IMG/VR virus record: IMGVR_UViG_3300025168_000414
Span: 1 to 30,356 of that record
Source: a virus
Direction: 5' to 3' (one strand)
DNA: 30,356 nucleotides
The translations under genes were made by a program, and so were the position numbers. This document shows positions 1,044 through 23,418 of the stretch, in pieces. Within the stretch, counting starts at the first letter, position 1, and every line of letters starts with the position of its first letter. The notes under the pieces are model-generated. The model did not search any database. It saw only the letters and a program-made list of their open reading frames with translations, and was not told where the DNA came from.

Positions 1044-2561
1044 ATGGGACTAAAAAAGAATTTTTTTAAAGGATTACAAAACGGTTTAAGTACTAGCCCT
1101 ATAAAGCAAGAAAATGGAGTTGATCTAAAAAATTTTCAATATTTTAACCCAGGAATAATGAAAGAAAAAATTAAACAAACTAATGATTATTTAAATTCAA
1201 TTAAAAACGCGCCTGAAATTGACAGAAGAAATCAAATCAATTTAGACTATAGAGCAAGAAGGTTAAAAGATATGAAAAAACTCTATCCTGACGCTAGTGA
1301 CGAAGATTTAAATGCTTATTTGTTTTCTAACAAAAAAGGTATACTTCCAGAAGACTACATTAGTCCTGCTGGCGGTGTAATGTATGGACAAAATGCTAAA
1401 ATGCTTACTGATCAAAACTTACCCTCAGACGCATTAGCAGTTAATGACCTAAGTATAAATGCGTATAAAATAAAAGAACATGAAAAACATTCTATAAACA
1501 ATCCAAGAGATTATGATAATGATATGTACGGTCTTAGTTTAGAAGAGAAAACTAAATTAGTAAATAATAAGATTAAAAACTTAAATTTAGATCCTAGAAA
1601 CGTAGAACAAAATTATCAAAAAGAAACTTTAGAAAATTTTTCAGATTGGTATATGAATCCAATAACTCAAAAAAGATTGTTAGAGCAAGCTCAATTTTCC
1701 GGAAACATTAGAAGCGAAAAATATGATGCCGGGTTAACTTCTGACACTAATAAGTTTTTTGAAACGGACAATGACCAAATATTTGCGCAGAAAGAGCTAA
1801 ATTATGGCAGAACAGCTCCAGATAGAGATAATAAACTTTTAACGGGCGCGTCCAATGTAGCTGGAAGTTTAGTTGGTCAAGCTGATATAGACAATATTAT
1901 GACAGGTATAGCAAACAAAAAATTTACATTTGAACAAGAAAGAGACGACTATGGAAATTTGCTTCCAAATGTAACTGGAAGTGTAGATCCAGCTAAAGCT
2001 AACTATAATAAAAATTACCCAAACATGTCAACGCATGATCTTGTAAATATAGATCCAGATACTTTAGGTAATAGTTCTCAAAACTATTCTGTTAATGATA
2101 CTAATTTAGTAGATGTTCGAAGAGTAAAAGAACAACCAAACCATATAAGAGCTAAACAACATACTGGTTCTCATGAATTGCTTCACAATACTAGATTAGA
2201 TAAATTAATGGATCCAGCACTAAGAACCACATTAAAAGGCAACTACGCCTCCATGTTAGGAGGTAATGATAGACATCAATATAAATACAATACAACACCT
2301 GGCGAACTTTATTCTAATTTTCATGAGTTTAGAAAATCTATAAACATGAAACCAGGAGAGCAATTTGATGAGAAAAAATTAAACGAAAGAATTAAAGAAA
2401 CTGGTATGGAAGATGATGATTTTAAACAAAATTTTACAACAGAATCACTAATAAAAGCTTTAAACACTATTGCAGACGCAGATAAAAAAACACCAGGTAA
2501 AAATAAATTTGAGGATTTGAAGATGATGGAAAGTCTGGATATGAACACAGGAATGGCGTAA
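1044..2561 (+). CDS. Putative zinc peptidase-like phage protein, first tandem paralog (HELLH)
   Basis: 505 residues, homologous along most of its length to the next gene. HELLH lies at residues 377-381 and a conserved P-G-E-L-Y-S-N-F block follows with Glu at 421, a candidate third zinc ligand 44 residues after the motif. Other shared blocks are a D-W-Y-x-x-P-I-T-Q segment ending L-L-E-Q-A-Q, a P-S-D-A-L block, and the C-terminal N-K-F-E-D-L-K-M-M. The N-terminus is basic and Phe-rich, ending in S-P-I-K-Q near residue 21, and is nearly the same in the paralog. No signal peptide or membrane segment is visible. The motif sits in the C-terminal third behind a long polar region, so this looks more like a virion or assembly protein with a peptidase domain than a free lysin. 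Peptidase activity is inferred from the motif alone. Confidence 0.8.
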   Translation: MGLKKNFFKGLQNGLSTSPIKQENGVDLKNFQYFNPGIMKEKIKQTNDYLNSIKNAPEIDRRNQINLDYRARRLKDMKKLYPDASDEDLNAYLFSNKKGILPEDYISPAGGVMYGQNAKMLTDQNLPSDALAVNDLSINAYKIKEHEKHSINNPRDYDNDMYGLSLEEKTKLVNNKIKNLNLDPRNVEQNYQKETLENFSDWYMNPITQKRLLEQAQFSGNIRSEKYDAGLTSDTNKFFETDNDQIFAQKELNYGRTAPDRDNKLLTGASNVAGSLVGQADIDNIMTGIANKKFTFEQERDDYGNLLPNVTGSVDPAKANYNKNYPNMSTHDLVNIDPDTLGNSSQNYSVNDTNLVDVRRVKEQPNHIRAKQHTGSHELLHNTRLDKLMDPALRTTLKGNYASMLGGNDRHQYKYNTTPGELYSNFHEFRKSINMKPGEQFDEKKLNERIKETGMEDDDFKQNFTTESLIKALNTIADADKKTPGKNKFEDLKMMESLDMNTGMA

Positions 2562-2574
2562 ATAATTTAAAAAT

Positions 2575-4002
2575 ATGGCATTAAAGAAAAATTTTTTTAA
2601 AAAACTACAAAACAATATAAGTATTAGTCCTATAAAACAAAACGGGGTTGGTGTGGATAAAAAATACCCTAATATTGTTAAAGAAGTTGATAATAATTCA
2701 ATTCAAGATGGTAGTAATTGGAGAACTGCGCGTATAAATGCTGAAAAAATAGCAAAAGAAAATAATATTAACGATAATTACAACGAAGCTGTGTTTAATA
2801 AAGCATTAAAACAAAATCCCAACATAGATCAAGAAGCTTTAAGAAAATACATGTTTAGTAATAAACCAGGATTAAACCCAAAAGAATATGCTATTCCTAA
2901 AGGTGGTGTTAGTAGTCCTGATAGACTTGCGATGATGGATCCATCAATACCTAGTGATGCACTAGTATTAGAAGACGGAGATCAATTAGCGCCCGGTATA
3001 CCAATGCTTAATACTTTTAATCTACATAGTTTACAAGCCGACACTAATATGATGAACATGAGTCTTAATGAAAAAAAGCAATATTTAAACAAAAAATTAA
3101 ATGCTAGAGATTTTGACATTAAGAACAAGGGTGATGTGTATGAAAGAGACAGTAAACAAAACTTTATAGATTGGTATACAGACCCTATAACTCAACAAAG
3201 ATTGTTAGAGCAAGCTCAAGGAGTAGGTAAGATTAGATCAGAAGAATTAGGTGGTAATGTTGCTGGTGATTTACTTTCTCAAGGTAATATAGATGGTATG
3301 CTTAGCAATAGTGTAGGTGCTGGTTTTAATTTTGAGTCAATGGGAAATCTAAGTTCAACATCAAAAGGTGACTACTTTGGATATGTGGCGCCTGCAGAAG
3401 GTTACGTTGATTCAGATTTAAAAATTAATTCTAAAATACCATTTGATCCTAAATCTGGATTTGGTGAATTTGGAGGATATAATTTAATTAATATAAACAA
3501 AGGTAATTTAAATGTTGCTCCACCTGGTGGTGACCCAAGCTTTGGTAGTTTTAGTAATCAAATAGGCGGAAGTACTGAGAATAAAAGAACAAAACAACAA
3601 ACTGGTTTTCATGAATTAGCTCATTACACTGGTTTAGATAAGGCAATGGATCCTTATTTAAGAAGTATACTAAAAAGACCAAAAAATAAAATAGCGGCTG
3701 GACCCAGTATTGAAGGGAGAGAAAGATATTACTCAAAAGAACCAGGTGAAATGTATGCTAATTTTACAGAGTTTAGAAAAATGATAAATATGAAACCAGG
3801 AGATCAGTTTAATGAAAAATCATTTAAAAAAGTATTGAAAGATAATGATTTAGAAAATGACGAATTTGTGCAGCAGTATGATACAAGTTCTTTAATAAAA
3901 GCACTTAATACTGTGGCTAAAGTTGATAAAACAGTTCCTGGTAAAAATAAATTTGAGGATTTAAAAATGATGCAAGGAAATATGAATACAGAGGTAGCGT
4001 AA
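2575..4002 (+). CDS. Putative zinc peptidase-like phage protein, second tandem paralog (HELAH)
   Basis: 475 residues, clearly related to the preceding 505-residue protein. HELAH is at residues 346-350 and the matching P-G-E-M-Y-A-N-F block gives Glu 392 as the candidate third ligand (46 residues away, against 44 in the paralog). The N-terminus repeats the K-K-N-F-F-K...S-P-I-K-Q leader and the C-terminus repeats the N-K-F-E-D-L-K-M-M block. The middle (about residues 225-310) has diverged most and is Gly/Asn-rich here. Both catalytic-type motifs are intact in both copies, so neither looks decayed. The gene pair arose by duplication, and the stop-codon context is also duplicated. Substrate and location are unknown. 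Confidence 0.8.
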   Translation: MALKKNFFKKLQNNISISPIKQNGVGVDKKYPNIVKEVDNNSIQDGSNWRTARINAEKIAKENNINDNYNEAVFNKALKQNPNIDQEALRKYMFSNKPGLNPKEYAIPKGGVSSPDRLAMMDPSIPSDALVLEDGDQLAPGIPMLNTFNLHSLQADTNMMNMSLNEKKQYLNKKLNARDFDIKNKGDVYERDSKQNFIDWYTDPITQQRLLEQAQGVGKIRSEELGGNVAGDLLSQGNIDGMLSNSVGAGFNFESMGNLSSTSKGDYFGYVAPAEGYVDSDLKINSKIPFDPKSGFGEFGGYNLININKGNLNVAPPGGDPSFGSFSNQIGGSTENKRTKQQTGFHELAHYTGLDKAMDPYLRSILKRPKNKIAAGPSIEGRERYYSKEPGEMYANFTEFRKMINMKPGDQFNEKSFKKVLKDNDLENDEFVQQYDTSSLIKALNTVAKVDKTVPGKNKFEDLKMMQGNMNTEVA

Positions 4003-4021
4003 ATAATTTAAAAACATGTGA
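4000..4021 (+). other. Duplicated gene junction with a start-stop remnant
   Basis: The sequence after the second paralog, GCG-TAA then ATAATTTAAAAA and ATG, nearly repeats the junction after the first paralog at 2556-2577. There the ATG starts the next gene; here ATG (4016-4018) is followed at once by TGA (4019-4021). This looks like the leader and start codon of a further copy, or of a lost neighbour, ahead of the secreted-protein gene. A short translated start-stop with a regulatory role is less likely. Confidence 0.35.
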
Positions 4022-4052
4022 TTATATTAATATAACAATTAAATTTAATTAT

Positions 4053-4451
4053 ATGAAAAATCTTATTTTAACATTATGCTTTCTTTTTACTACAGTTTTA
4101 TTTTCACAATCTGAATACGAAGATTTTATAGGTAACTGGGAAAGTGACAAAACACAATACACTTTAGTTATATCAAAACATTTTGCTAAAGATCATTTTA
4201 AGTTTTTAAATTACAAAGAAGTTTTTAAAACTATAGAAACTGGAGAACAAATAATAGAAATAGAATATTCTCCAGAAGAATTTGTAAAAGCTAAAAATAA
4301 AAAAATATATACTTTTGTAGCTTGGGAATATGGAGACGGCACAGAAAGTTATTATTGTGATTTAGTTTATGAAAAAGTAACTAAAAATAAATTAAAGGTT
4401 ACATTTACAGGATCATCAAAAATGGTTTTGTATTATAAAAGAAAAAAATAA
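4053..4451 (+). CDS. Small secreted protein with signal peptide, function unknown
   Basis: 132 residues. It begins with a textbook Sec signal peptide: Lys at position 3, a hydrophobic core of Leu/Phe/Thr from about 4 to 17, then F-S-Q-S with probable cleavage near residue 19-20. The F-S-Q ending is common in flavobacterial exported proteins. The mature part begins G-N-W-E-S-D and continues with alternating strands (Y-T-L-V-I, I-I-E-I-E-Y, I-Y-T-F-V-A-W-E-Y), which could be a small beta barrel of lipocalin-like type; that fold is a guess. The holin gene starts on the very next base after its stop, so the two are probably co-translated. Candidate roles are periplasmic help at lysis or exclusion of superinfecting phage. 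It may derive from the host. Confidence 0.8.
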   Translation: MKNLILTLCFLFTTVLFSQSEYEDFIGNWESDKTQYTLVISKHFAKDHFKFLNYKEVFKTIETGEQIIEIEYSPEEFVKAKNKKIYTFVAWEYGDGTESYYCDLVYEKVTKNKLKVTFTGSSKMVLYYKRKK

Positions 4452-4904
4452 ATGAAAAAAAAATTTAACGAAACTAAAGTTGGAAAGTTTTTAAGCAAAG
4501 CTGCTCCAGGTATATTAGACTTAGCTGGTGATGTGTTGCCAGACGCTGGTGTTTTTGGTTTAGTTAAAAATTTAATAACCAAAGACGAAAACCTACCCAC
4601 AGAGTTTAAAGAAAAAGCATTGATGTTATTAGAACAAGATATGATAGAAATGCAAGAGGTTTCAAAACGCTGGGAGAGCGATATGAAAAGCGACTCATGG
4701 CTTTCGAAAAACACGCGACCAATGTGTTTAATTTTTTTATCTATAATGACGGTAGCTTTTATATGGGTAGACAGTCATCATGAGATATCTTTTACAGTAG
4801 AACAAGAATGGATAGGTTTACTAAAAACTTTAGTAACTACAGTCTACGTAGCCTATTTTGGTTCGCGTGGAGTTGAAAAATATAAAACAATAAGTAATAA
4901 ATAA
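4452..4904 (+). CDS. Holin, three-transmembrane (GTA-type) family
   Basis: 150 residues. The N-terminal third is a soluble amphipathic region, followed by a charged helix (E-Q-D-M-I-E-M-Q-E-V), then S-K-N-T-R-P-M, a hydrophobic segment at about 91-106, a short loop, and another hydrophobic segment at about 125-137 ending Y-F-G-S-R-G-V-E-K. The W-x-x-x-x-T-R-P plus Y-F-G-S-R-G-x-E-K signature is that of the 3TM holin family first described in gene transfer agents (PF11351). Holins collect in the inner membrane and open it at a set time, releasing the lytic enzyme or collapsing the membrane potential. The start abuts the stop of the secreted-protein gene. No recognisable lysozyme or amidase gene is found nearby. 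Confidence 0.85.
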   Translation: MKKKFNETKVGKFLSKAAPGILDLAGDVLPDAGVFGLVKNLITKDENLPTEFKEKALMLLEQDMIEMQEVSKRWESDMKSDSWLSKNTRPMCLIFLSIMTVAFIWVDSHHEISFTVEQEWIGLLKTLVTTVYVAYFGSRGVEKYKTISNK

Positions 4905-4916
4905 AAAAAATAAAAA

Positions 4917-5267
4917 ATGGGACAATTTCCAACAAATGATGGTATAGTAGGACAAGCTATGCCTTTAACAGCGGCTATGATAGCTGGTATAGACGTTAGA
5001 CCGGCTTGGTTATTTGAAAACCAAAGTGGGACATTAGGTACTAATCTTAATTCATCTGTAATATATTGTGGTGTAATGCCAGCAGACGCAAGTATTAGTG
5101 TTATACTACCGGGTGTTACTGCAGTTGGAGGTGGAGCACCAGTAGCTGGACAAGCTATAACTTTTGAAGGTTTACAGTCTGGATCAATATTACCAGTGGC
5201 TGTAGATTACGTTACAGCAGTAGCTGGTGCCGGTGTAACTGTGGATGACTTTATAATATGTAAATAA
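4917..5267 (+). CDS. Small Gly/Ala/Val-rich protein, possible virion decoration protein
   Basis: 116 residues with no signal peptide or catalytic motif. It is rich in Gly, Ala, Val and Ile in alternating patterns (for example V-A-V-D-Y-V-T-A-V-A-G-A-G-V-T-V near the end), suggesting a compact beta protein. The general make-up resembles the 198-656 product, but no convincing alignment between the two is seen. An A-rich leader without Shine-Dalgarno sequence precedes the ATG. It lies between the holin and the small conserved genes upstream of the terminase. A structural role is inferred from composition and position only. Confidence 0.7.
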   Translation: MGQFPTNDGIVGQAMPLTAAMIAGIDVRPAWLFENQSGTLGTNLNSSVIYCGVMPADASISVILPGVTAVGGGAPVAGQAITFEGLQSGSILPVAVDYVTAVAGAGVTVDDFIICK

Positions 5268-5314
5268 CTTTAAAACAAGTAAATAACAAATAAATAACAA
5301 TTAAATTAAATCAA

Positions 5315-5578
5315 ATGAAAAAAGCAGAAGAAAAAATTAAAGCAATGATTACTAAAGAACAATTAAAAACTGTTAACGATCAACAATCTAAATTAAGTGG
5401 TTTTTTAAGATCTATTGGTGTTTTAGATGTACAAAAACAAAACGTACATAGTGAAATACAAAAAGTGTCTGAAGAAATTGAAGCAACTAAAAAAGAACTT
5501 GAAAACGAGTATGGTCAAATAAATATTGATCTTAAAGATGGAAGTTATACTGAAATCGAAAAAGAAGATGCAGAATAA
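5315..5578 (+). CDS. Small coiled-coil protein, conserved-looking hypothetical
   Basis: 87 residues, mostly charged helix. Heptad-like spacing of Leu/Ile/Val from about residue 15 to 65 predicts a coiled coil. The last 20 residues switch to a short beta-like segment (Y-G-Q-I-N-I-D-L-K-D-G) followed by an acidic tail. The start follows an AT-rich 47-base gap. It overlaps the next gene by 11 bases, so translation is likely coupled. No enzymatic motif is present. A small assembly factor or oligomerising structural protein would fit, but the function is unknown. Confidence 0.75.
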   Translation: MKKAEEKIKAMITKEQLKTVNDQQSKLSGFLRSIGVLDVQKQNVHSEIQKVSEEIEATKKELENEYGQINIDLKDGSYTEIEKEDAE

Positions 5579-5795
5579 TATAAGAAAAATTAGTATTGGA
5601 TCTGACTATAAAAACGACGCGATGCATTATGCTGTAGGTCAACAAGTTTATGGAGGTCATGAAATATCTCATATACTTTTAGATAGTTCTGATAAATCTT
5701 ATAATATACACATTAAAAAAAACAACGAGGTATTGCCATGGAAAAAATTTAATTCTAACATGGCTATATCCGTTGAGTATGACTTAGAATATTAA
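5568..5795 (+). CDS. Small conserved-looking hypothetical protein
   Basis: 75 residues from the ATG at 5568. An upstream in-frame ATG at 5526 exists, but it would overlap the previous gene by 53 bases and add a low-complexity Lys-rich stretch, so the internal start is preferred. The body reads as a small beta domain: R-K-I-S-I-G near the start, then M-H-Y-A-V-G-Q-x-V-Y-G-G, S-Y-N-I-H-I and a C-terminal A-I-S-V-E-Y. I recall similar proteins in uncultured marine phages, but no function is known to me. Its stop overlaps the next start by one base (TAATG), placing it in a translationally coupled set with the GroES-like and terminase genes. Confidence 0.75.
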   Translation: MQNNIRKISIGSDYKNDAMHYAVGQQVYGGHEISHILLDSSDKSYNIHIKKNNEVLPWKKFNSNMAISVEYDLEY

Positions 5796-6400
5796 TGAAA
5801 AGTTTATATGATTTTATTGTAGAACCTTTAGGTGAAACTTACAGTAATGAAATAAATATTGACAAAAAAAAACTTATTCTTAACACTAAAATAGAAAGTT
5901 TTAAATTTGTTAATAGACACGCTTTGGTAAAGCAAGTACCTTTAGCTTATAAAACAGGTATTGAAATAGGTGATATTGTTATATTACATCAAAACGTTTT
6001 TAGAGTATTCTATAACATGCAAGGTAAAAAAAAACAAAGTAGATCTTTTTTTAAAGATAATTTGTATTTTTGTTCTTTAGATCAAGTTTATTTATATAAA
6101 AATAAAAATGGTTGGAATTCATTTAATGACAGGTGTTTTATACAACCTATAAAAAATTTAGACAACCTAAGCGTTGATAAAGAAAGAAATCTAATTGGTA
6201 TATTAAAGTACGGAAACAGCAGCTTAAAACATAAAGATATTAACCCTGGAGACTTAGTTGGTTACACGCCTAATGGCGAATGGGAATTTATTGTAGACGA
6301 AGAACGTCTTTATTGTATGAAATCAAATGATATTGTTATAAAATATGAATACCAAGGAAACGAAGCAAAATATAATCCTAGCTGGGCAAGTAGCAGTTGA
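5795..6400 (+). CDS. Possible double GroES-like co-chaperonin protein
   Basis: 201 residues. Two halves have the same outline: a G-D-I-V-I-L turn near residue 58-63 with L-Y-F-C-S-L-D-Q-V-Y later, and G-D-L-V-G-Y near residue 152-157 followed by E-R-L-Y-C-M-K-S-N-D-I-V. In GroES, a G-D-x-V strand is followed by a short hairpin and a conserved x-x-x-D-I-x strand, and the second half matches this best. This suggests a phage co-chaperonin-like fold used in capsid folding, as gp31 is in T4, but similarity is partial and the mobile loop is not identified. The C-terminal tail N-P-S-W-A-S-S-S is coded in a region shared with the next gene (56-base overlap). Alternative: an unrelated small beta protein. 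Confidence 0.75.
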   Translation: MKSLYDFIVEPLGETYSNEINIDKKKLILNTKIESFKFVNRHALVKQVPLAYKTGIEIGDIVILHQNVFRVFYNMQGKKKQSRSFFKDNLYFCSLDQVYLYKNKNGWNSFNDRCFIQPIKNLDNLSVDKERNLIGILKYGNSSLKHKDINPGDLVGYTPNGEWEFIVDEERLYCMKSNDIVIKYEYQGNEAKYNPSWASSS

Positions 6401-6620
6401 AGAACTTATAAAAGTTGCTAAAGAAGCTATAATAGATACAGCAGATGATATATCTGCAGATAGACTTAAAAATGCTGCAGCCACAAAAAAACTAGCTATA
6501 TTTGATGCTTTTGAAATACTTAATCGTATTGAAGAAGAAAAAAATATGTTAGAAGATAAGCCAAAAGAAATTAAAAAAGAAACTACATTTCGTGGTTTTG
6601 CTGAAGGAAGATCTAAATAA
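6345..6620 (+). CDS. Putative small terminase subunit
   Basis: 91 residues, almost all helical, with a conserved-looking core (about residues 14-63) holding V-A-V-E-E-L-I, D-I-S-A-D-R-L-K-N-A-A-A-T-K-K and A-F-E-I-L-x-R-I-E-E-E. It lies directly upstream of the large terminase, and its stop overlaps that start by one base (TAATG). This position, small size and helical character fit the small terminase, which recognises phage DNA and forms a ring that loads the large subunit. No helix-turn-helix can be assigned with confidence. The start at 6345 is the only ATG that keeps the conserved core and forces a 56-base overlap with the preceding gene in another frame. Confidence 0.7.
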   Translation: MNTKETKQNIILAGQVAVEELIKVAKEAIIDTADDISADRLKNAAATKKLAIFDAFEILNRIEEEKNMLEDKPKEIKKETTFRGFAEGRSK

Positions 6621-8827
6621 TGTACAAGCAAACTTTATATAAAATATTAAAAAACCATGTTAAACCTAAAGTTCTTAAACGAATGAATAGGTATAATAAA
6701 TGGGATTATGGATATAACGAAGATCATGATATGGTTGTTATATCTAAGACTGGGCAAATTGGAGAGATTTATGAGATACAAAATCTTAAAATAGCTTTAC
6801 CAGCCGCTGTAAACGTGCATGAGTTTAAAGAAAACAAATGGACTAAATTTGAATATCCTAAGATATTAAAAAAAATTAAAACAGTTTTTGATTGGAGAGA
6901 GTATCCTGATGAATTTAAAGAAAAACACTATGACTACATCGATAATGAGTTTACTCGCAGAGAAGAAGGTTTTTGGTATGTTAATAAAGATGTGCCTACT
7001 TACATTACTGGTACTCACTATATGTACTTGCAGTGGTCCAAGATTGATGTTGGGAACCCAGACTTTCGAGAAGCAAACCGTATCTTTTTCATATTCTGGG
7101 CCGCCTGCGTTGCAGATACACGGTGTTATGGTATGTCCTATCTCAAGAACAGACGTTCGGGCTTTTCGTTTATGGCATCAGGTGAGTGCGTTAACATGGC
7201 GACCATATCAACCGACGCACGTTTTGGGATTTTGTCCAAATCTGGCGCCGATGCTAAGAAGATGTTCACTGATAAGGTCGTACCAATATCCGTTAATTAT
7301 CCCTTCTTTTTCAAGCCGATCCAGGACGGAATGGACCGTCCAAAGACCGAACTCGCATACAGAGTTCCAGCCAGTAAATTTACCAGAAGAAGTATTACCT
7401 CTTCCGACAAAGCCGAGGATCTCGCCGGGCTCGACACGACAATCGACTGGAAAAATACCGGTGATAACGCCTACGATGGTGAAAAACTCAAACTCCTCGT
7501 CCACGATGAAAGTGGGAAATGGGAAAGGCCAAACAACATTCTTAACAACTGGAGGGTTACGAAAACCACCCTTAGATTAGGATCAAGAATTATTGGAAAG
7601 TGTATGATGGGATCAACATCAAACGCTTTAGACAAAGGTGGTAGAAACTTTAAAAAACTATACGATGACTCAGATGTTAACAAAAGAAACGCCAATGGAC
7701 AGACTCGCTCAGGATTATATTCTTTGTTCATACCTATGGAATGGAACTACGAAGGATACATTGATTCTTATGGGTTTCCTGTCTTCGAAACTCCAAAAAA
7801 CAAAACATACGGACCGCATGGAGTATTAATAAAAATAGGTGTATTAGAGTATTGGAAAAATGAGGTTGAAGGATTAAAAGAAGATCAAGACGGTTTAAAT
7901 GAATTCTACAGACAATTTCCCCGTACAACTAAACATGCTTTTAGAGATGAATCTAAAATGTCTTTATTTAATTTAACTAAAATCTATCAACAAATAGATT
8001 ATAATGAAGATATTAATAATAAAATACTAGTAACAACTGGTTCTTTTAGTTGGCAAAACGGAATTAAAGATTCGAAAGTTTTATTTTTACCTAATAATAA
8101 CGGTAGGTTTAAAGTGTCTTGGGTTCCACCAATTCAATTACAAAACAAAGTAATAATAAAAAATGGTATAAAATATCCTGGAAATGAACATTGTGGATGT
8201 TTTGGTTGTGATAGTTATGATATATCAGGAACAGTTGATAAAAGAGGTTCTAACGGATCTTTACATGGATTAACAAAATACAGCATGGAAGACGTGCCTC
8301 CTAGTATGTTTTTTTTAGAATACATAGCAAGACCGCAAACTGCTGAAATATTTTTTGAAGATGTATTAATGGCTTGTATATTTTATGGCATGCCTATATT
8401 AGCTGAAAACAATAAACCAAGACTACTTTATCATTTTAAACGTAGAGGTTATAGAGGCTTTGCAATGAATAGACCTGACAAAATTTGGAATAAACTTTCA
8501 ATAACAGAAAAAGAAATAGGTGGAATACCTAATTCAAGCGAAGACATAAAACAAGCGCACGCAGCGGCAATAGAATCTTATATTGAATCACATGTTGGTC
8601 TTTTAGATAATGGGTATGGAGATATTTATTTTCAAAGAACATTAGAAGATTGGTCTCAATTTGATATAAACAATAGAACTAAACATGATGCTTCTATAAG
8701 TTCTGGTTTAGCACTCATGGGTTGTAACAAACATAGATACACGCCTATTTTTAAAGCGCCATTAGCGTCAAAACCATTAGGGTTTAAAAAATATAATAAC
8801 GAAGGAATTAGTTCAAAAATAATATAA
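6620..8827 (+). CDS. terL: Terminase large subunit (ATPase and nuclease)
   Basis: 735 residues. TerL powers DNA packaging and cuts the concatemer. The ATPase half has an Arg-rich loop N-R-R-S-G-F-S at about 177-183 in the Walker A position; it lacks the usual Lys after Gly, a variation I believe is shared by related marine phage terminases. Walker B is L-L-V-H-D-E-S with Asp 296 and Glu 297, and M-M-G-S-T-S-N follows in the coupling-motif position. The nuclease half shows G-C-D-S-Y-D (Asp 531), a middle acidic/aromatic stretch around I-L-A-E-N-N, and H-D-A-S (Asp 690), the expected acidic residues of an RNase H-like nuclease. The length is typical of long crAss-like TerL proteins. Bases about 7030-7570 have very different GC content and codon use. 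Confidence 0.92.
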   Translation: MYKQTLYKILKNHVKPKVLKRMNRYNKWDYGYNEDHDMVVISKTGQIGEIYEIQNLKIALPAAVNVHEFKENKWTKFEYPKILKKIKTVFDWREYPDEFKEKHYDYIDNEFTRREEGFWYVNKDVPTYITGTHYMYLQWSKIDVGNPDFREANRIFFIFWAACVADTRCYGMSYLKNRRSGFSFMASGECVNMATISTDARFGILSKSGADAKKMFTDKVVPISVNYPFFFKPIQDGMDRPKTELAYRVPASKFTRRSITSSDKAEDLAGLDTTIDWKNTGDNAYDGEKLKLLVHDESGKWERPNNILNNWRVTKTTLRLGSRIIGKCMMGSTSNALDKGGRNFKKLYDDSDVNKRNANGQTRSGLYSLFIPMEWNYEGYIDSYGFPVFETPKNKTYGPHGVLIKIGVLEYWKNEVEGLKEDQDGLNEFYRQFPRTTKHAFRDESKMSLFNLTKIYQQIDYNEDINNKILVTTGSFSWQNGIKDSKVLFLPNNNGRFKVSWVPPIQLQNKVIIKNGIKYPGNEHCGCFGCDSYDISGTVDKRGSNGSLHGLTKYSMEDVPPSMFFLEYIARPQTAEIFFEDVLMACIFYGMPILAENNKPRLLYHFKRRGYRGFAMNRPDKIWNKLSITEKEIGGIPNSSEDIKQAHAAAIESYIESHVGLLDNGYGDIYFQRTLEDWSQFDINNRTKHDASISSGLALMGCNKHRYTPIFKAPLASKPLGFKKYNNEGISSKII
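7030..7570 (+). other. GC-rich island of foreign codon use inside terL
   Basis: By hand count of nine 60-base lines (7021-7560), GC is about 47%, against 33% in the two lines just before (6901-7020) and about 30% elsewhere. Within it Arg is often CGT, CGA or CGG, Leu is CTC, Ala is GCC, and Ser is TCC or TCG, while the flanks use AGA, TTA, GCT and TCT. In a 40-codon sample, about half of the third positions are G or C. The reading frame and TerL protein motifs are uninterrupted. It covers the ATPase core from before the Walker A-like loop to just after Walker B. The best reading is recombination with a higher-GC relative, or an assembly chimera. Confidence 0.8.
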
Positions 8828-8830
8828 TAA

Positions 8831-11245
8831 ATGATTTATAATAATTACGTTGGTTCATTTCCAAGTCAGGTAGTATCTGATGAAGAAAAGCAAAGTTACG
8901 ACTATGGTTACGCTGTGGGACGCGCTGTTGAGGGTGAGTGGTTTTCTGGAGACAGAGGAGGTATGGGAAATAGATACCAAAATAGTTGGTTAAATTTTCA
9001 TAGACTAAGATTGTATGCTAGAGGAGAACAACCTGTGCAAAAATATAAAGATGAGTTATCTATTAATGGTGATTTGTCTTATCTTAATTTAGACTGGAAA
9101 CCAGTACCTATTATACCTAAATTTGTAGATATAATTGTAAATGGTATGTCACAAAAAATTTTTGATATAAAAGCTTATGCTCAAGATCCAGAATCTTTAA
9201 AACAAAGAACAAAATACGCAGATGCTATAATGCGTGATATGTATGCTAAAGAAATAATTCAAGCCACTAATGACGCTACTGGAATGAATTTTTTTAATAC
9301 AAATGATCCAAATAACATACCTGAGTCTCAAGATGAATTAGATTTACACATGCAGCTTAGTTATAAGCAGTCTATAGAAATAGCAGAAGAAGAAGTTATT
9401 GAAAATGTGCTAGCTGCAAATAAGTATGAATTAGTTAAAAAAAGATTATTACAAGATTTAGCAATTATAGGTATAAGTGCAGTAAAAACAGATTTTAATT
9501 TAGCTAATGGGGTAACTGTTAATTATGTTGATCCTGCTAATTTAGTTTATTCTTACACAGAAGATCCAAATTTTGACGATATATACTATGCTGGTGAAGT
9601 TAAGTCTATTAGTTTAGTAGAACTTAAGAAACAATTTCCAGGACTAACTGATTCAGAATTAAAAGAAATAGAAAAATATCCTGGTGACGCTAACTATACT
9701 AGAAATTTTTACGCACAACAAGATTCTTATAACCAAGTTCAAGTGTTATATTTTGAATATAAAACTTACAGTAATCAAGTTTTTAAAATAAAGCAAACAG
9801 AACAAGGGTTAGAAAAAGCTTTAGAAAAACCAGACAGTTTTAATCCACCCGCTAATGATAACTTTGAAAGAGTTGGAAGAAGTATTGAGGTTTTATATAC
9901 TGGAGCTAAGATATTAGGACATGAAATGATGTTAGAATGGAAACTAGCAGAAAATATGACAAGGCCTAATTCTAATGTTACAAAAGTTAACATGAATTAC
10001 GCTATATGTGCTCCTAGAATGTATAAGGGCAACATAGAATCAACCGTAAGCAGAATAACAGGCTTTGCTGATATGATTCAATTAACACATCTTAAACTAC
10101 AACAAGTTTTAGCGCGTATGGTGCCAGATGGTGTGTTTGTAGATGTTGATGGTTTAGCGGAAGTAGATCTAGGTAATGGAACTAATTATAATGCACAAGA
10201 AGCATTAAACATGTATTTCCAAACTGGTTCTATTGTTGGTAGATCAATGACTCAAGAAGGTGACTTAAATAGAGGAAAAGTACCTATACAAGAATTACAG
10301 ACTTCAGCAGGTAGCGCAAAAATACAAAGCTTAATACAAACTTATCAATATTATTTACAAATGATAAGAGATGTAACTGGGCTTAATGAAGCTAGTGATG
10401 CTAGCACACCAGATCAACATGCTTTAGTAGGTTTACAAAAAATGGCAGCAGCTAATTCTAATACTGCATTAAGACATATTATGCAAGCTGGATTATTTTT
10501 AACTTTAAGAAGTTGTGAAAATATAGCATTAAGAGTAGCTGATTCTTTAAGTTATCCTTTAACAAGAGCTGCTTTAATAGATTCTATATCATCTTATAAT
10601 ACAGGCACGTTAGAAGAACTACAAGATAGAAACTTACAAGATTTTGGTATATTTTTAGAATTAGAACCTGATGATGAACAAAAAGCTCAATTAGAACAAA
10701 ATATTCAAATAGCATTACAGTCAGGTGGAATAGATTTACCAGACGCTATTGATATACGTCAAGTAAAAAATATAAAATTAGCTAATGCTTTATTAAAACA
10801 AAGTCGTAAAAGAAAAGCTGCAGAAGATCAAGCTAAGAATTTACAAAACATTCAAGCGCAAGCTCAAGCAAATGCTCAAGCTGCTGAACAAGCTACAACT
10901 GCAGAGATGCAAAAACAACAAGCTTTAGCAGAAACAGAAATACAAATAGAACAAGCAAAATTACAGTTTGAAACTAAAAAAATGCTTCAAGAAGCTGAGA
11001 TTAAAAAAGAGTTAATGGCAGAAGAATTTGGGTATAACATGCAATTGGCACAAATAAAAGCTAATACTGAAACTCAAAAAGAATCAGAAATAGAAAACAG
11101 AAAAGATTCAAGAGTAAAATTACAAGGTACTCAAGAATCAGAGCTTATTAATCAAAGACAAAACAACACACTACCCCAAAGTTTTGAATCCGCTGGATTT
11201 GATGGTTTAGGAGGTTTTGGGCTAGAACAATTTACGCCTAGATAA
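8831..11245 (+). CDS. Portal protein
   Basis: 804 residues directly after TerL, four bases downstream of its stop. The portal forms the dodecameric ring through which DNA enters and leaves the head. Near residues 90-115 a block L-N-L-D-W-K-P-V-P-I-I-P-K-F-V-D followed by I-V-N-G-M resembles the N-terminal region of crAss-like portal proteins. The middle contains long helices with alternating acidic and hydrophobic residues, and D-V-T-G-L-N-E-A near residues 515-522 fits the common portal crown/stem region. The last 150 residues (from about 655) form a Gln/Ala/Glu-rich coiled coil and a Gly/Phe-rich tail, which may be the barrel inside the capsid. Gene order TerL, portal, scaffold, capsid strongly supports the call. 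Confidence 0.88.
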   Translation: MIYNNYVGSFPSQVVSDEEKQSYDYGYAVGRAVEGEWFSGDRGGMGNRYQNSWLNFHRLRLYARGEQPVQKYKDELSINGDLSYLNLDWKPVPIIPKFVDIIVNGMSQKIFDIKAYAQDPESLKQRTKYADAIMRDMYAKEIIQATNDATGMNFFNTNDPNNIPESQDELDLHMQLSYKQSIEIAEEEVIENVLAANKYELVKKRLLQDLAIIGISAVKTDFNLANGVTVNYVDPANLVYSYTEDPNFDDIYYAGEVKSISLVELKKQFPGLTDSELKEIEKYPGDANYTRNFYAQQDSYNQVQVLYFEYKTYSNQVFKIKQTEQGLEKALEKPDSFNPPANDNFERVGRSIEVLYTGAKILGHEMMLEWKLAENMTRPNSNVTKVNMNYAICAPRMYKGNIESTVSRITGFADMIQLTHLKLQQVLARMVPDGVFVDVDGLAEVDLGNGTNYNAQEALNMYFQTGSIVGRSMTQEGDLNRGKVPIQELQTSAGSAKIQSLIQTYQYYLQMIRDVTGLNEASDASTPDQHALVGLQKMAAANSNTALRHIMQAGLFLTLRSCENIALRVADSLSYPLTRAALIDSISSYNTGTLEELQDRNLQDFGIFLELEPDDEQKAQLEQNIQIALQSGGIDLPDAIDIRQVKNIKLANALLKQSRKRKAAEDQAKNLQNIQAQAQANAQAAEQATTAEMQKQQALAETEIQIEQAKLQFETKKMLQEAEIKKELMAEEFGYNMQLAQIKANTETQKESEIENRKDSRVKLQGTQESELINQRQNNTLPQSFESAGFDGLGGFGLEQFTPR

Positions 11246-17038: not shown

Positions 17039-20000
17039 ATGGCTGAAAATAAAAATAGTTTTATAAAGTCTAAGATGAATAAAGATCTAGACGATAGAAT
17101 AATTCCAAATAATGAATACAGGGATGCTCAAAACATTGCTGTTTCAAGATCAGAAAACGAAGACGTAGGTGCTTTAGAATCTATTTTAGGAAATGAGCTA
17201 GTTTTTTCAAACAATGGACTTAAAACAATAGGTCAATATGTTGATGAAAGAAATGGTTTTATATATTATTTTGTTACAGATTGGAGTAAATTAGGTTTAG
17301 CACCAAGCACTTCTAATCATAGGATTTATAGATGGCAACCAACCTCAGGTAATAACACACCTACTATTTTAGTTGATGGTTATTTTTTAAATTTTTCTAC
17401 ATTAGCTCCAGTTTATGGGGTTAGTTTGTTAGAAGAATTATTATTTTTTACAGACAATAGAAATCAACCAAGAAACATAAACGTACTTACAGCTTCTTTA
17501 GATGTAAGTAATACTTATTATAAAGACGAAGAAAGCATAACTGTTTGTAAGTATTTTCCATATGAAGCACCTAGCTTAATAGATTTAAGAAGTGTATCTT
17601 CTTTAAAACCAAGCACTATGAGCGATGCTCAAAACTTACCTGAAATAACTATAGGTGCTATTGTTTTTGCTACAGAAAATTTAAACGTAGCTAGATATAG
17701 AAATGGAGACTTAATTACACATGCTGTAACAAGATCTGATTGGATAGATGCTAATACAAATGAAACTGGAGCGTGGTGTTATTATGAAAACAATTTAGCT
17801 AATGGTGTAATATATCAAAAATTATATAATAGTTGGGCTGTTAGAGATTCAAGAAACATTTGTCCTTACGGTTACGATGTTGTTGATGAAGCTGATTATT
17901 TAAATTTAAATACTCAAGTAGGTGTAACTGGCACGGGTTCAATAAAGTCAACCGACAATTGGCTCAACTCATCTAGCGCGAGCAACAATTCAACTGGATT
18001 TGATTCTCAACCTAGTGGTGAAAGAATAGCTACAAGTGACACTGATGACTTTCAAGAAATATACACTAATGCTAAATACTGGATAAAAGGTGGTTTAAAA
18101 TATTATTCTATATTAGACAACAACAATGTTCCAACAATAGAAACAGCTTTAATTAGTCCTGCTACTGGATATGGAAGTTTAGTTGGCGGTACTACATATA
18201 ATAACGCTACTGACGTGGCGACTGTTGCTGTAAATCCTGCCATTGGAACTGGAGCTATTGTAACTATTACAGCTAATAACGGCCCTGTGACCAACGTTGT
18301 TTTAACAAGCGGTGGAGCTGGTTACAATATTGGAGATGTTCTTACTATATCAGGAGGTACAGATGACGCAACCATAACAGTTACTTCTATAGGTATTAAT
18401 GAATCTATAATGGGATTTGCTGTTAGAGTAATTAAAGAAGTTGGGTTTAAAGGTTGGCAAGGTGATCCAGAATTTATAAAAGATAAATTTGTTAGATTTA
18501 GTTACAGATTTAAGTTTGATGATGGTGAATATTCTTTAATAGCTCCATTTTCACAAGATTGTTATATACCTCTTCAAGAAGGTAGATTTGTTAATGATGA
18601 CGAAGATAATGCTTTAAGATCTACTATTATTGATTTTATGCAAAACAGTATTAATAATATAATATTAAACATAGAACTACCTTCGTTAGATATAGTTGAT
18701 GACTATAAAATTGAAGAAATAGATATAATCTATAAAGAATCAGATTCTTTAACTTACAAGATATTACAAAATGTTCCTGTAAATAAAACTTTTACTAGTA
18801 ATTTAAATGATACTAATATATATCAATACACATACGAATCAACAGTTCCTTTTAAAACACTACCTACTGATGAAACAACTAGAGTTTTTGATAAGGTTCC
18901 TGTAAGAGCAAGAGCACAAGAAATATCAGGTAATAGAATAATGTATGGTAATTTTGTACAAAGCTACAATGCGCCATTATCATTAGACTACGCTGCTGGT
19001 TCTTCAGATAAAAATGCTCAAGAATATGAAGAATATCCTCAGCACTCTGTAAAACAAAATAGAAATTATCAAGTTGGTGTTATATTGGCAGATAAATGGG
19101 GTAGACAAACAGACGTAATATTATCTTCTAAAGATAATGTATTAGTAGCAGGTGGACAACCAACCGAAGGCTCTAACTTTTTTACTACATATAGACCTGT
19201 AGAAAATGCTGGTACTGTTTTAGGATGGTTAGGAGAATCTTTAACCATGAGGTTTGATGATGTAATTACTGTAAACGGAGATCCCACTGGTTTATATGCA
19301 GTGCCAGTTAGTTATCAAGCGATAGCTAGTCCAACTACTGGTTTTTCTTCTCCTTTTCCTTCATTTCTTGATTATAGTGTTCAAGTTTTAAATACAGTTG
19401 CAAATCAAACAGTTTACACTTTTAACAATATATCAGTTCAGGATATAGGCGTTACTAATATATTTAGCTTATGGATAAACCAAGGTAATGGATGGGTTTT
19501 AATAAACTCTACTGATTATGGTGTTACTGACGATGGTGATGATCAATCTGTTGTTACTTTAACAGCCTCTATACCTGCTTCTTCAAGTTATAAAATAAGA
19601 GCTAGATTGCTTTATGACAATCAATATAAATATGAAATATTAAATATAACAGATGCTGATAAAATTTTTAAAGTAAATAAAAAACTAAGAGGAAAATATC
19701 AAGATTATGTTGAAATAAAATCTGTATCAGGCACAACAGACACTGTAGATATACGTACTAATCATGAGATCTCAGACACATATATATTTATAGGTGATAG
19801 TATTCCTGCGTCTAATCCTACAACCAGAGTAGAATCTATAACAGATTTAACAGTTTCTAACTTTGTTTATGATATAAACGTTACAGGTTTTTATTCTTAT
19901 AGAATAGTTATTAAACAACAAGAACAAGAATATTACAATGTATATTTACCTGGTATAATTGATGGTTATCCTATACAGGGTAATACTACTGAAATAGGAG

Positions 20001-22057
20001 ATACTTCATTTTGCGTATTAACTCATGATAATATAAACAAAGTTCCTAGAGAACTAACCGATGTAGGCGCTCAAGACACACAGTTTAACAGTAATTTAAA
20101 CATGTTTGGTAGAGTTACTAATATAGCGGCTACAGTAAGTAATCAACAGTTTGGACCAAATTCTACCCCAGATATTGTAGAGCTAATAGGTAGTATACAA
20201 AAAGTATTTCCAGATGTAGATTATGATGGTGATGCTGGCTCAGCCCCAGCCGCTGGAAAAATAAACAATAATGCTATATTTGATATTGATCAAAAACCTT
20301 TTATAGCTAAAATAAATACACAAAAAAGCATAGGTATACTTCAAGGTGATTATAATACACAATCTGCTGGTGCGGAATATCCAGATTATTTAGATTTAGC
20401 TGTATATGAAACAGCGCCTACTGTATCTAATTTAGATTTATTTTATGAAACTTCAACCACAGGTTTAATATCTGATTTAAATTATGCTATACAAACAGCA
20501 GGTACACAGATAATAGGTTTGTCTACTTTCACTTGGTTGCACAACGAGGGTGATTGCGGTGGAGCACAATTAACAACTCCGTTTTTTGCTTTAACACCAG
20601 ACGGTAATGATGTAACTTCTACAGCTGCTTTTCTTTCAGTATACTCATTTGATTCAAATGATGACGTTGTAACGAGCGTAAATAGATCTCAAGAATTTGC
20701 TTTACAAAGCGCCGGTGGTGGTGCTTTTAGAATAGATTTAGCAGCGGATACTATAGCCGGTGTTCCTCATGCTGCTTTAACTGGTTTTAGTTATTTACAA
20801 AAATATCAATTTACTATTGAATTCACGCAAGCAGATGGTACTACTTCTACGCAACAATTCACTAGAACGCTACTTAATGATCCACCGGTTATAGAATTAA
20901 CACAAGCACCTCAACCAACTTTAGCTGATACAACAATAATGAAGTGGACTGGTTATAGTGGTTTATTGGCGTCTGGCCCAGGTGTTGTAAGAGGTTACAA
21001 TGGTAGTTGTGCGCCTTGCAATAGAACCGTAGATCTAGAGTGGGTTATAGAAAGTACTAGATGGCAAGACGCAACAGGCGCTTGGTATGGTTACATAACA
21101 GGTCAAAATCCCACAGGTACACCAACAACTAGTGATATTGCTTATTATTATTTTATAAAAGGTCAACAACAACAAAACCAAAGCACTTGTACTACAGGAA
21201 GTAATGAAAATTTTTACGGATTGTGGTTAGAAAGAAAAAACCCTGGTGGTTTAGGAGGAACTTTAGAAGGTGATTTTTTAGCTGCTAATCTTCACGAGGT
21301 AACAATGAAGTTAGTAGACAAAAACGGCACGGATGCCAGCACTAGTCTTGCTATTCAATATACACCTATAGCTTCATCATATACTGGTGTTAGAGCTAAT
21401 TGGTATACTTCTAATATAACTTCTGGAAATCCTGGTTATATAAATCCAGCCTTACAATGGCAATCTCCACCTACAGGCGCTGTTGGTATGACGCCTGGTT
21501 GCCCTACAAGCACGTCTACTGCCGCTCTACCAATATGGGTAGGTGAAGTTGCTAATTGGACTAATCAAACACAATATATATATGCTAAAGTTGTAAGAAA
21601 TGGAACGGGTCAAAGTCAATTTATTGCTGTTGTTTCTGGTTATAATACAACCACGACAACTGCTTTTCAAGCACCTGCGTCTGGAACTGGAGCACCTTTT
21701 GCAAGTTTCACCTCTCCAATAACTATTAGCGACTCTACATCTAATGATTCATATTCAATACTAGCAACACTACAGCCATTTAATCCAACGCAAGCACAAA
21801 TAAACGTTGGGGTTAGGCCTGGTGATTCAGGAACTGACCCAGTAACAAGCACGTCGTATGACTGGAGCCAGTGTTGTCTTATTAACATGAAGATTGAATT
21901 TACAACAGCGTTTTGCGCTAGTGGAGTTAGTCTTACTTTAGTTTCTGACACTGTATTACAGTCTCCACCACCAAGCCCTGAGTTAGTTAATCCAGCAAGC
22001 GGATCACCTCCATTTGTATCTAGTGCATGGTTTAAAACAAACGCTTGGCCAAGTTAG
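17039..22057 (+). CDS. Giant tail nozzle protein, N-terminal half, with inserted FISUMP and beta domains
   Basis: 1672 residues. The first 190 residues (K-S-K-M-N-K-D-L-D-D-R then D-A-Q-N-I-A-V-S) resemble the start of T7 gp12-like nozzle/muzzle proteins. About residues 205-350 read as a Fib_succ_major-type domain: E-N-L-N-V-A-R-Y-R-N-G-D, G-A-W-C-Y-Y (Trp 246, Cys 247), I-C-P-Y-G-Y-D-V (Cys 275), K-Y-W-I-K-G-G. A repetitive beta module follows (about 368-448) with G-G-A-G-Y-N-I-G-D-V-L-T. The nozzle fold resumes near residue 478 with F-V-R-F-S-Y-R-F-K-F-D-D-G and later Y-Q-V-G-V-I-L-A-D-K-W-G-R-Q. The last 500 residues are a Cys-bearing, Thr/Ser/Gly-rich beta region that may hold receptor-binding domains. 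The next gene appears to carry the rest of the nozzle. Confidence 0.85.
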   Translation: MAENKNSFIKSKMNKDLDDRIIPNNEYRDAQNIAVSRSENEDVGALESILGNELVFSNNGLKTIGQYVDERNGFIYYFVTDWSKLGLAPSTSNHRIYRWQPTSGNNTPTILVDGYFLNFSTLAPVYGVSLLEELLFFTDNRNQPRNINVLTASLDVSNTYYKDEESITVCKYFPYEAPSLIDLRSVSSLKPSTMSDAQNLPEITIGAIVFATENLNVARYRNGDLITHAVTRSDWIDANTNETGAWCYYENNLANGVIYQKLYNSWAVRDSRNICPYGYDVVDEADYLNLNTQVGVTGTGSIKSTDNWLNSSSASNNSTGFDSQPSGERIATSDTDDFQEIYTNAKYWIKGGLKYYSILDNNNVPTIETALISPATGYGSLVGGTTYNNATDVATVAVNPAIGTGAIVTITANNGPVTNVVLTSGGAGYNIGDVLTISGGTDDATITVTSIGINESIMGFAVRVIKEVGFKGWQGDPEFIKDKFVRFSYRFKFDDGEYSLIAPFSQDCYIPLQEGRFVNDDEDNALRSTIIDFMQNSINNIILNIELPSLDIVDDYKIEEIDIIYKESDSLTYKILQNVPVNKTFTSNLNDTNIYQYTYESTVPFKTLPTDETTRVFDKVPVRARAQEISGNRIMYGNFVQSYNAPLSLDYAAGSSDKNAQEYEEYPQHSVKQNRNYQVGVILADKWGRQTDVILSSKDNVLVAGGQPTEGSNFFTTYRPVENAGTVLGWLGESLTMRFDDVITVNGDPTGLYAVPVSYQAIASPTTGFSSPFPSFLDYSVQVLNTVANQTVYTFNNISVQDIGVTNIFSLWINQGNGWVLINSTDYGVTDDGDDQSVVTLTASIPASSSYKIRARLLYDNQYKYEILNITDADKIFKVNKKLRGKYQDYVEIKSVSGTTDTVDIRTNHEISDTYIFIGDSIPASNPTTRVESITDLTVSNFVYDINVTGFYSYRIVIKQQEQEYYNVYLPGIIDGYPIQGNTTEIGDTSFCVLTHDNINKVPRELTDVGAQDTQFNSNLNMFGRVTNIAATVSNQQFGPNSTPDIVELIGSIQKVFPDVDYDGDAGSAPAAGKINNNAIFDIDQKPFIAKINTQKSIGILQGDYNTQSAGAEYPDYLDLAVYETAPTVSNLDLFYETSTTGLISDLNYAIQTAGTQIIGLSTFTWLHNEGDCGGAQLTTPFFALTPDGNDVTSTAAFLSVYSFDSNDDVVTSVNRSQEFALQSAGGGAFRIDLAADTIAGVPHAALTGFSYLQKYQFTIEFTQADGTTSTQQFTRTLLNDPPVIELTQAPQPTLADTTIMKWTGYSGLLASGPGVVRGYNGSCAPCNRTVDLEWVIESTRWQDATGAWYGYITGQNPTGTPTTSDIAYYYFIKGQQQQNQSTCTTGSNENFYGLWLERKNPGGLGGTLEGDFLAANLHEVTMKLVDKNGTDASTSLAIQYTPIASSYTGVRANWYTSNITSGNPGYINPALQWQSPPTGAVGMTPGCPTSTSTAALPIWVGEVANWTNQTQYIYAKVVRNGTGQSQFIAVVSGYNTTTTTAFQAPASGTGAPFASFTSPITISDSTSNDSYSILATLQPFNPTQAQINVGVRPGDSGTDPVTSTSYDWSQCCLINMKIEFTTAFCASGVSLTLVSDTVLQSPPPSPELVNPASGSPPFVSSAWFKTNAWPS

Positions 22058-22089
22058 TAAAAAACTAAACAAATAAGTAATTATAATAT

Positions 22090-23418
22090 ATGTCTACTAC
22101 ATTAAAAATACAGTACTACAATACTTTTATATTAAAAAAGATAAATCAAAGTTGGAGCTCCTCTGGTGGCTACAATAGAGCCAATGCACAATATGATTGG
22201 TACGTAGAAGAGTCTAGAATAAAAGGTGATTATAATGGTAAGTTTGCTGGTATTTCACCTAGAGCATTTTTAGTAACTGACAATAAAACTCAAGAAACGT
22301 TTGGCAATACTATTATTTATTCTGGAATTTTTAATTCAAGAACAGATATAAATGAAACAAATCAATTTTCAATTGCAAATGACATAACTAGAACAGTTGA
22401 TCCTTCAAAAGGAACAATTCAAAAGTTATACGCTGAAGATACAAATCTTACTATATTTCAAGAAAGAAAAGTAAATAGAGCTTTAATAGATAAAGACGCT
22501 ATTTATACGGCAGAAGGCCAACCTATTACTACTTCCACCAACCTTGTAATTGGTCAAATACAACCTTACGCTGGCGAGTTTGGTATAGCTACAAATCCAG
22601 AATCATTTGCGGTTTATGGTTATAGAAAATATTTTACAGATGCAAATAAAGGTTCTGTTATGAGATTATCTCAAGATGGTTTAACAGAAATATCTAATTA
22701 TGGTATGTATGACTTTTTTAGAGATAGATTAAGTTTGTCAAACATGGGTAGTTTAGGTAAATTAATAGGTGGATGGGATATTCATAACAAATGCTATACA
22801 TTGTCAATACAACCCACCGTAGGCCAAGAAACAGGTGAACAAGCTATTACTTTGTCATTCGATGAGCAGGTTCAAGGTTGGACTAGCTTTTATAGTTACG
22901 TTCCTTCTAATATCTTAAGTTTAAATAATAGTTTTTATAGTTTTAGTTTAAAAGGGGATTTATATAAACATTACTCTACTGTTTCAAATAGAGCTAATTT
23001 TTATGGAGTTGATAATACTTCTAGTGTTACTACAGTTTTCAATGCTAAACCTTCTATGATTAAAAACTTTCAAACAATAAACTATGAAGGTGATAGCAAT
23101 TGGTCATTGAATTTATTTCAAACAAATACTGATTCAGCTAACCAAATTGATGTATTTAGCATGCCAACTACTTTGGCAGACATGGAAAATGCTTTACTAA
23201 AAAACCAATTTAAAGCTAAAGAAAATAAATATTTTGCAAATTTAATAAACACTAGTGCTGTTAATCAAGGTGAAGTTATATATGGCAAAGAAATTTCAGG
23301 TGTAAAAGGATTTTACGCTACAGTTAGATTAAGTGCTAAAAATCTTTCAGGTGGTGGATTAGCTGGAACAAACGAATTGTTTGCAGTAAGCACAAATTAT
23401 AAAGAATCATCTTATTAA
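22090..23418 (+). CDS. Nozzle/muzzle protein, C-terminal half encoded as a separate gene
   Basis: 442 residues, starting 33 bases after the giant nozzle gene, with an AT-rich leader and its own ATG. Blocks such as W-Y-V-E-E-S-R-I-K-G, D-P-S-K-G-T-I-Q-K-L-Y-A-E-D-T-N-L, F-Q-E-R-K-V-N-R-A-L-I-D-K and G-W-T-S-F-Y-S-Y-V-P-S, followed by S-L-N-N-S-F-Y-S-F, are those I expect near the C-terminal half of long crAss-like nozzle proteins. The protein therefore probably assembles with the 1672-residue product to form the tail tube end. There is no frameshift remnant: the upstream gene ends in a stop and this frame has a clean start. A separate tail protein is possible. Confidence 0.78.
   Translation: MSTTLKIQYYNTFILKKINQSWSSSGGYNRANAQYDWYVEESRIKGDYNGKFAGISPRAFLVTDNKTQETFGNTIIYSGIFNSRTDINETNQFSIANDITRTVDPSKGTIQKLYAEDTNLTIFQERKVNRALIDKDAIYTAEGQPITTSTNLVIGQIQPYAGEFGIATNPESFAVYGYRKYFTDANKGSVMRLSQDGLTEISNYGMYDFFRDRLSLSNMGSLGKLIGGWDIHNKCYTLSIQPTVGQETGEQAITLSFDEQVQGWTSFYSYVPSNILSLNNSFYSFSLKGDLYKHYSTVSNRANFYGVDNTSSVTTVFNAKPSMIKNFQTINYEGDSNWSLNLFQTNTDSANQIDVFSMPTTLADMENALLKNQFKAKENKYFANLINTSAVNQGEVIYGKEISGVKGFYATVRLSAKNLSGGGLAGTNELFAVSTNYKESSY

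Follow-up and report, generated by a model that had tools for sequence, protein, structure and literature searches.

A FISUMP domain in an apparently exchangeable slot of a crAss-like phage tail muzzle protein, a candidate adhesion module

INTRODUCTION

What interrupts the tail muzzle protein encoded on an uncultured viral contig of 30,356 bases (the whole of which we call the window), where did the interrupting domain come from, and what might it do at the tail tip? For the host choice of uncultured crAss-like phages, an exchangeable muzzle slot with a lectin-fold domain would be a concrete, testable candidate in aquatic crassviruses. The muzzle protein gp44 of phicrAss001 (7QOK/7QOL) has a ring-joining/propeller framework with the domain IG1 between blades 2 and 3; its authors noted that muzzle length varies by insertion, naming the crass and IG2 regions, and proposed that the muzzle tip touches the cell, with the distal crass domain as the contact (PMC10172136). 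FISUMP and related/DUF1566 domains are known targets of diversity-generating retroelements (PMC4159848, PMC8143477), and the FISUMP family is known to serve as a scaffold for diversified binding (PMC4159848). Gut crAss-like phages carry C-terminal lectin-fold domains on their tail fibers, and in some of these phages diversity-generating retroelements act on the fibers (PMC7290462, PMC12386605).

RESULTS

A crassvirus muzzle divided between two ORFs

The window, probably a fragment, belongs to an aquatic lineage of crAss-like phages. Its structural block shares its gene order with cultured crassviruses, e.g., Cellulophaga phage phi38:1, and genes for a phrog_6681 terminase and a phrog_6547 portal protein lie upstream of the muzzle ORF. 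Most samples are presumably marine, to judge by the sample numbers. A gene for a GroES-like co-chaperonin (phrog_13932, E=2.7e-19) was seen at positions 5795 to 6400, a short way upstream of the terminase gene.

The ORF at 17039 to 22057 encodes the N-terminal part of the crassvirus tail muzzle, a T7-nozzle-like tail-tip protein (Table 1). Both the sequence family and the C-terminal Pfam domain in the adjoining ORF identify the protein as a crassvirus muzzle, and the structure model of residues 1 to 700 reproduces the propeller/IG1 part of the fold, aligning with phicrAss001 muzzle chain 7qol_P at a Z score of 11.2 over 187 residues (rmsd, 5.0). Because both ORFs match phrog_14478, the second at a later part of the family and with PF25729 in addition, the muzzle is split in two. 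The second ORF lies in a different frame, 32 bases downstream of the first. The same division, which extends over positions 17039 to 23418 here, was seen in every relative of the clade for which the next gene was available; phi38:1 and elemoF, in contrast, have an unsplit muzzle protein.

Table 1. Features of the split muzzle locus (window coordinates; residue numbers refer to the first ORF)
Feature	Position	Strand	Evidence
Muzzle (tail nozzle-like) protein, N-terminal part, 1672 aa	17039..22057	+	phrog_14478, E=5.6e-46; model vs phicrAss001 muzzle 7qol_P, Z 11.2, 187 residues
First propeller blades, residues 55-171	17201..17551	+	structure model, pLDDT 77-92 for the most part; 7qol_P and many propellers matched by VIA
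Hypervariable insertion slot, residues 181-475	17579..18463	+	greatest length variation in muzzle residues 1-760; content 42-319 aa
FISUMP (PF09603) domain, first segment, residues 203-370	17645..18148	+	Pfam E=1.5e-18; AlphaFold pLDDT mostly 84-97 in core
Nested Gly-rich beta module, residues 371-454	18149..18400	+	absent in L001-L004; module HMM 1e-18; 52% identity to a piece of a cyanophage S-RIM2 structural protein
FISUMP last segment ESIMGFAVRV, residues 455-464	18401..18430	+	G and R invariant across 75 aligned FISUMP rows; predicted strands
Ig-like domain 1, framework resumption, residues 483-603	18485..18847	+	predicted strands, pLDDT mostly 73-86, weak stretch 511-539
Muzzle C-terminal part, separate ORF, 442 aa	22090..23418	+	PF25729 crAss_MUZ_C, E=8.9e-11; phrog_14478 positions 920-1273

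A variable slot at the predicted blade 2/Ig domain 1 junction

A first-pass annotation of the window had proposed a nozzle-type tail protein whose framework breaks off, accommodates an insertion, and resumes. The relatives bear this out: they can be aligned as far as about residue 181, and the alignment resumes at about residue 473 to 475. Between ISVAKYYPY and GDPDYLEDKFVRFSYRF, 80 relatives hold 42 to 319 residues of varied content, versus only 7 to 13 residues between the framework blocks, i.e., a nearly empty slot, in the cultured phages phi38:1 and elemoF and in a spring-water phage. Over muzzle residues 1 to 760 of 62 proteins, the standard deviation of length was 40 to 47 in the two halves of the slot, compared with 16 at the next most variable site. 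The opposite outcome, namely, absence of a PF09603 match together with a fold continuous with the nozzle in all relatives, was looked for and did not occur.

In the structure alignment, model residues 55 to 603 map to residues 64 to 278 of the phicrAss001 muzzle chain, the aligned range ending within IG1 (residues 163 to 292 by the bounds of PMC10172136), and the model places the slot where propeller blade 2 meets Ig domain 1. Because the phicrAss001 authors name the crass and IG2 regions, this insertion site adds to the published description. Judged by sequence comparison, the slot is evolutionarily exchangeable: lineages differ in whether it holds a FISUMP domain, Gly-rich or other beta modules, or next to nothing. 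FISUMP was present in 21 of the 40 related records searched, 20 times in the muzzle slot and once (L099) as a separate small ORF. In L099 (positions 2450 to 3701), two small adjoining proteins have the common start MGQYGNQPDF and a similar ending, one of them with a FISUMP domain in its middle, an apparent with/without pair.

A FISUMP domain that is itself interrupted

The presence of a FISUMP domain, also suggested in the first-pass annotation, was substantiated by a PF09603 profile search, which matched residues 203 to 350 (window positions 17645 to 18088) with E=1.5e-18 and 68.1 bits against a curated cutoff of 33.9. TIGR02145, the NCBIfam FISUMP profile, reached 37.7 bits, just short of its curated cutoff of 41.65, perhaps because the match is cut at profile position 138 by a nested module. 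This module, residues 371 to 454 with the motif GAGYNIGDVL, is the second, Gly-rich beta module of the first-pass annotation; it is real but, rather than following the FISUMP domain, it is nested within it, before the last strand, with FISUMP running to residue 464. Specifically, TIETA ends at residue 370, 84 extra residues follow, and ESIMGFAVRV occupies residues 455 to 464, placing the invariant G and R of the C-terminal G..VR strand, as defined by a 75-sequence alignment, at residues 459 and 463. We consider the module nested and not consecutive because four close relatives (L001 to L004) have the FISUMP domain without it, two of them matching the 187-position PF09603 profile almost in full (L003 over positions 1 to 186 and L004 up to position 185). 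The muzzle FISUMP is thus a case of nested domain insertion in a virion protein.

Since a Gly-rich module occupies another FISUMP loop in L096 to L098 and is lacking in their sister L093, modules of this type entered FISUMP at least twice, at different loops. Such modules also occur at other places in muzzles, and relatives have them in the ring-type gene upstream and in the muzzle C-terminal protein. Structural proteins of cyanophage S-RIM2 carry them as well, as do baseplate, head-closure, and tail-fiber families of PHROG. A search for a second contig with a nested module at the same FISUMP position found none. Third-position GC content was considered as a mark of foreign origin of the module and rejected, as 30% of equally long stretches of the gene are equally high.

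Because the model of residues 1 to 700 was of poor quality over FISUMP, a domain model was made from 75 sequences, bacterial FISUMP loci being excluded from the structure-model inputs. Its pLDDT values were mostly 84 to 97 in the FISUMP core and about 50 in the nested module, for which we therefore claim no fold. A Foldseek search of this model against the PDB returned nothing; when 69 Foldseek candidate chains were re-aligned with VIA, the top match was TaqVP (5VF4), the variable protein of a diversity-generating retroelement, at a modest Z score of 5.3 over 134 residues (rmsd, 3.6). TaqVP has a C-type lectin fold, and the predicted FISUMP fold weakly resembles it. No solved structure was matched significantly in searches by sequence or with profiles of the muzzle, FISUMP, and the Gly-rich module.

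Origin and evolution of the muzzle FISUMP

Of 198 genomes sampled from the class to which a Cyclobacteriaceae genome belongs, 93 have a FISUMP domain, and viral contigs contain at least 381 instances. Descent from the host, as proposed in the first-pass annotation, is not supported by the cysteine that follows the final VR (VR-C), which is kept in 28 of the 29 classifiable bacterial domains and absent from all 14 muzzle domains, or by the nearest bacterial match to the window domain, which is only 34% identical. Among the 58 phage FISUMPs that could be classified, 47 have also lost VR-C, proportions that are rough, as the phage sample was chosen by similarity to a bacterial profile. The muzzle FISUMP therefore has a phage-type feature in common with FISUMPs of other phages. 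Across the FISUMP domains of L104 to L213, this cysteine is kept in bacteria and mostly lost in phages, with leucine in its place; a disulfide may have been lost in proteins assembled in the cytoplasm.

In a tree of the muzzle framework built without the slot, a single branch (support, 100/100) sets all FISUMP-bearing proteins apart from the others, which fits a single entry of FISUMP into the slot; the FISUMP tree is in agreement, with the 14 muzzle domains forming one group (support, 97/96). Two distant crAss-like phages have a nearly empty slot and a FISUMP domain at the C terminus of the muzzle ORF (L161) or in an adjoining ORF (L164), a separate recruitment to muzzles at another site. The propeller of L161 (positions 3623 to 10060) is broken elsewhere, with a first ORF that ends in FISUMP, a small ORF, and then the rest of the propeller as a separate ORF.

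Within the slot, FISUMP is under purifying selection: dN/dS is about 0.09 to 0.26 in close pairs, among which no sign of positive selection was seen, and dN is usually above that of the framework. Recombination at the slot edge is likely for L096 and L098, because their DNA identity falls from 96 to 99% up to about residue 180 to 72 to 79% across the slot, being mixed thereafter. The two differ elsewhere in the muzzle as well, and exchange is not limited to the slot. Along their muzzle ORFs, stretches of 96 to 99% DNA identity alternate with stretches of 63 to 79%, a mosaic suggestive of tail-tip recombination. In L082 and L083, FISUMP dN and dS exceed those of the flanks, but since 4-fold sites are not more divergent, likely exchange is claimed for L096/L098 only.

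DISCUSSION

The reading that we favor, with some reserve, is that the slot-borne FISUMP is a tail-tip adhesion domain changed by module insertion and recombination. As a loop insertion with a putative C-type lectin fold at the blade 2/Ig domain 1 junction, one FISUMP copy would be displayed at the tail tip by each subunit of the muzzle, which is presumably hexameric by homology. It would bind a surface molecule, probably a glycan or a surface protein of a Bacteroidota host, and would thereby help adsorption before the muzzle gate opens. Once installed, the domain would change by substitution, by insertion of Gly-rich modules into its loops, and probably by recombination, with no visible retroelement. 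We infer a host-binding role because the predicted fold bears a modest likeness to TaqVP, the family is a known retroelement target, and lectin-fold domains occur on crAss-like fibers. Against this stand the position of the slot, which the model puts in the upper muzzle (propeller/IG1) and not in the distal crass domain proposed as the contact, the dN/dS values, which give no hint of positive selection, the modest Z score of the TaqVP match, picked from only 69 candidates, and the crassvirus tail fibers, which could perform recognition instead. A broader version, possible but doubtful, is that the blade 2/IG1 site of aquatic crassvirus muzzles is a dedicated cartridge slot for interchangeable, mutually nested modules for adhesion (FISUMP as well as Gly-rich and other beta modules), so that the muzzle would determine host range alongside the fibers.

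Considerably less probable than the adhesion reading is structural decoration, in which the slot domains, FISUMP included, stiffen or shield the muzzle or aid passage through capsule without specific receptor binding. The varied slot content would agree with this, and generic decoration is common, since Gly-rich modules occur across virion protein families; yet the FISUMP core is complete throughout a clade in which identity drops to 36%, and the family has a known role as a diversified scaffold for binding (PMC4159848). A functionless, near-neutral insertion in a permissive loop is improbable: the slot does tolerate very different lengths and contents, but FISUMP is under purifying selection, is kept throughout the sampled clade, and was separately recruited to muzzles at another site.

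We regard it as very improbable that the domain is a diversity-generating retroelement target with a reverse transcriptase encoded outside the part of the genome recovered here. This reading draws on the fragmentary state of the window, on FISUMP being documented among the target families, and on the retroelements that act on tail fibers of some gut crAss-like phages. The first-pass annotation had called for a search for a reverse transcriptase and a template repeat, and neither was found: no RVT_1 was found in the window contig or 64 related records (65 in all, several of them >50 kb, though they may be fragments), and the window contains no template repeat with adenine-limited mismatches, its best 70-nt match having 9 non-A and 37 total mismatches. 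Moreover, most close pairs have FISUMP domains of 89 to 98% identity, with dN far below dS, and the nested module seems to occupy the place where variable residues would lie. Least credible of all is a chimeric assembly, with the nested module as an artifact, since, although the module is at this position in this contig only, the ORF is open across both joints, the flanking domain is intact, L096 to L098 have an equivalent module in another FISUMP loop, and the module is like the gene in third-position GC.

The favored reading, a tail-tip adhesion domain, can be set beside several known systems. The phicrAss001 protein gp44 (7QOK/7QOL) shares with the window muzzle the ring-joining/propeller framework in which IG1 separates blades 2 and 3; its noted insertions are in the crass and IG2 regions, whereas that of the window is at blade 2/IG1 and bears FISUMP, in a muzzle divided between two ORFs. 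The muzzle of Cellulophaga phage phi38:1 (gp97) agrees with that of the window in framework and gene order but has a nearly empty slot and an unsplit gene. Like other members of Fib_succ_major (PF09603, TIGR02145), the window FISUMP is a full-length domain with the G..VR end motif; other phage FISUMPs are usually C-terminal (84 of 94 ORFs), whereas this one is internal, inserted in a loop, and itself interrupted. Its modest likeness to the C-type-lectin-fold variable proteins (TaqVP, 5VF4) lies in the predicted fold (Z, 5.3), and, unlike in those systems, no reverse transcriptase, template repeat, or hypervariation was found. The tail fibers of Zeta crAss-like phages are crassvirus tail proteins with a lectin-fold domain, as the window muzzle is predicted to be; there the domain is C-terminal on a fiber and under a retroelement, whereas in the window it lies inside the muzzle without one (PMC12386605).
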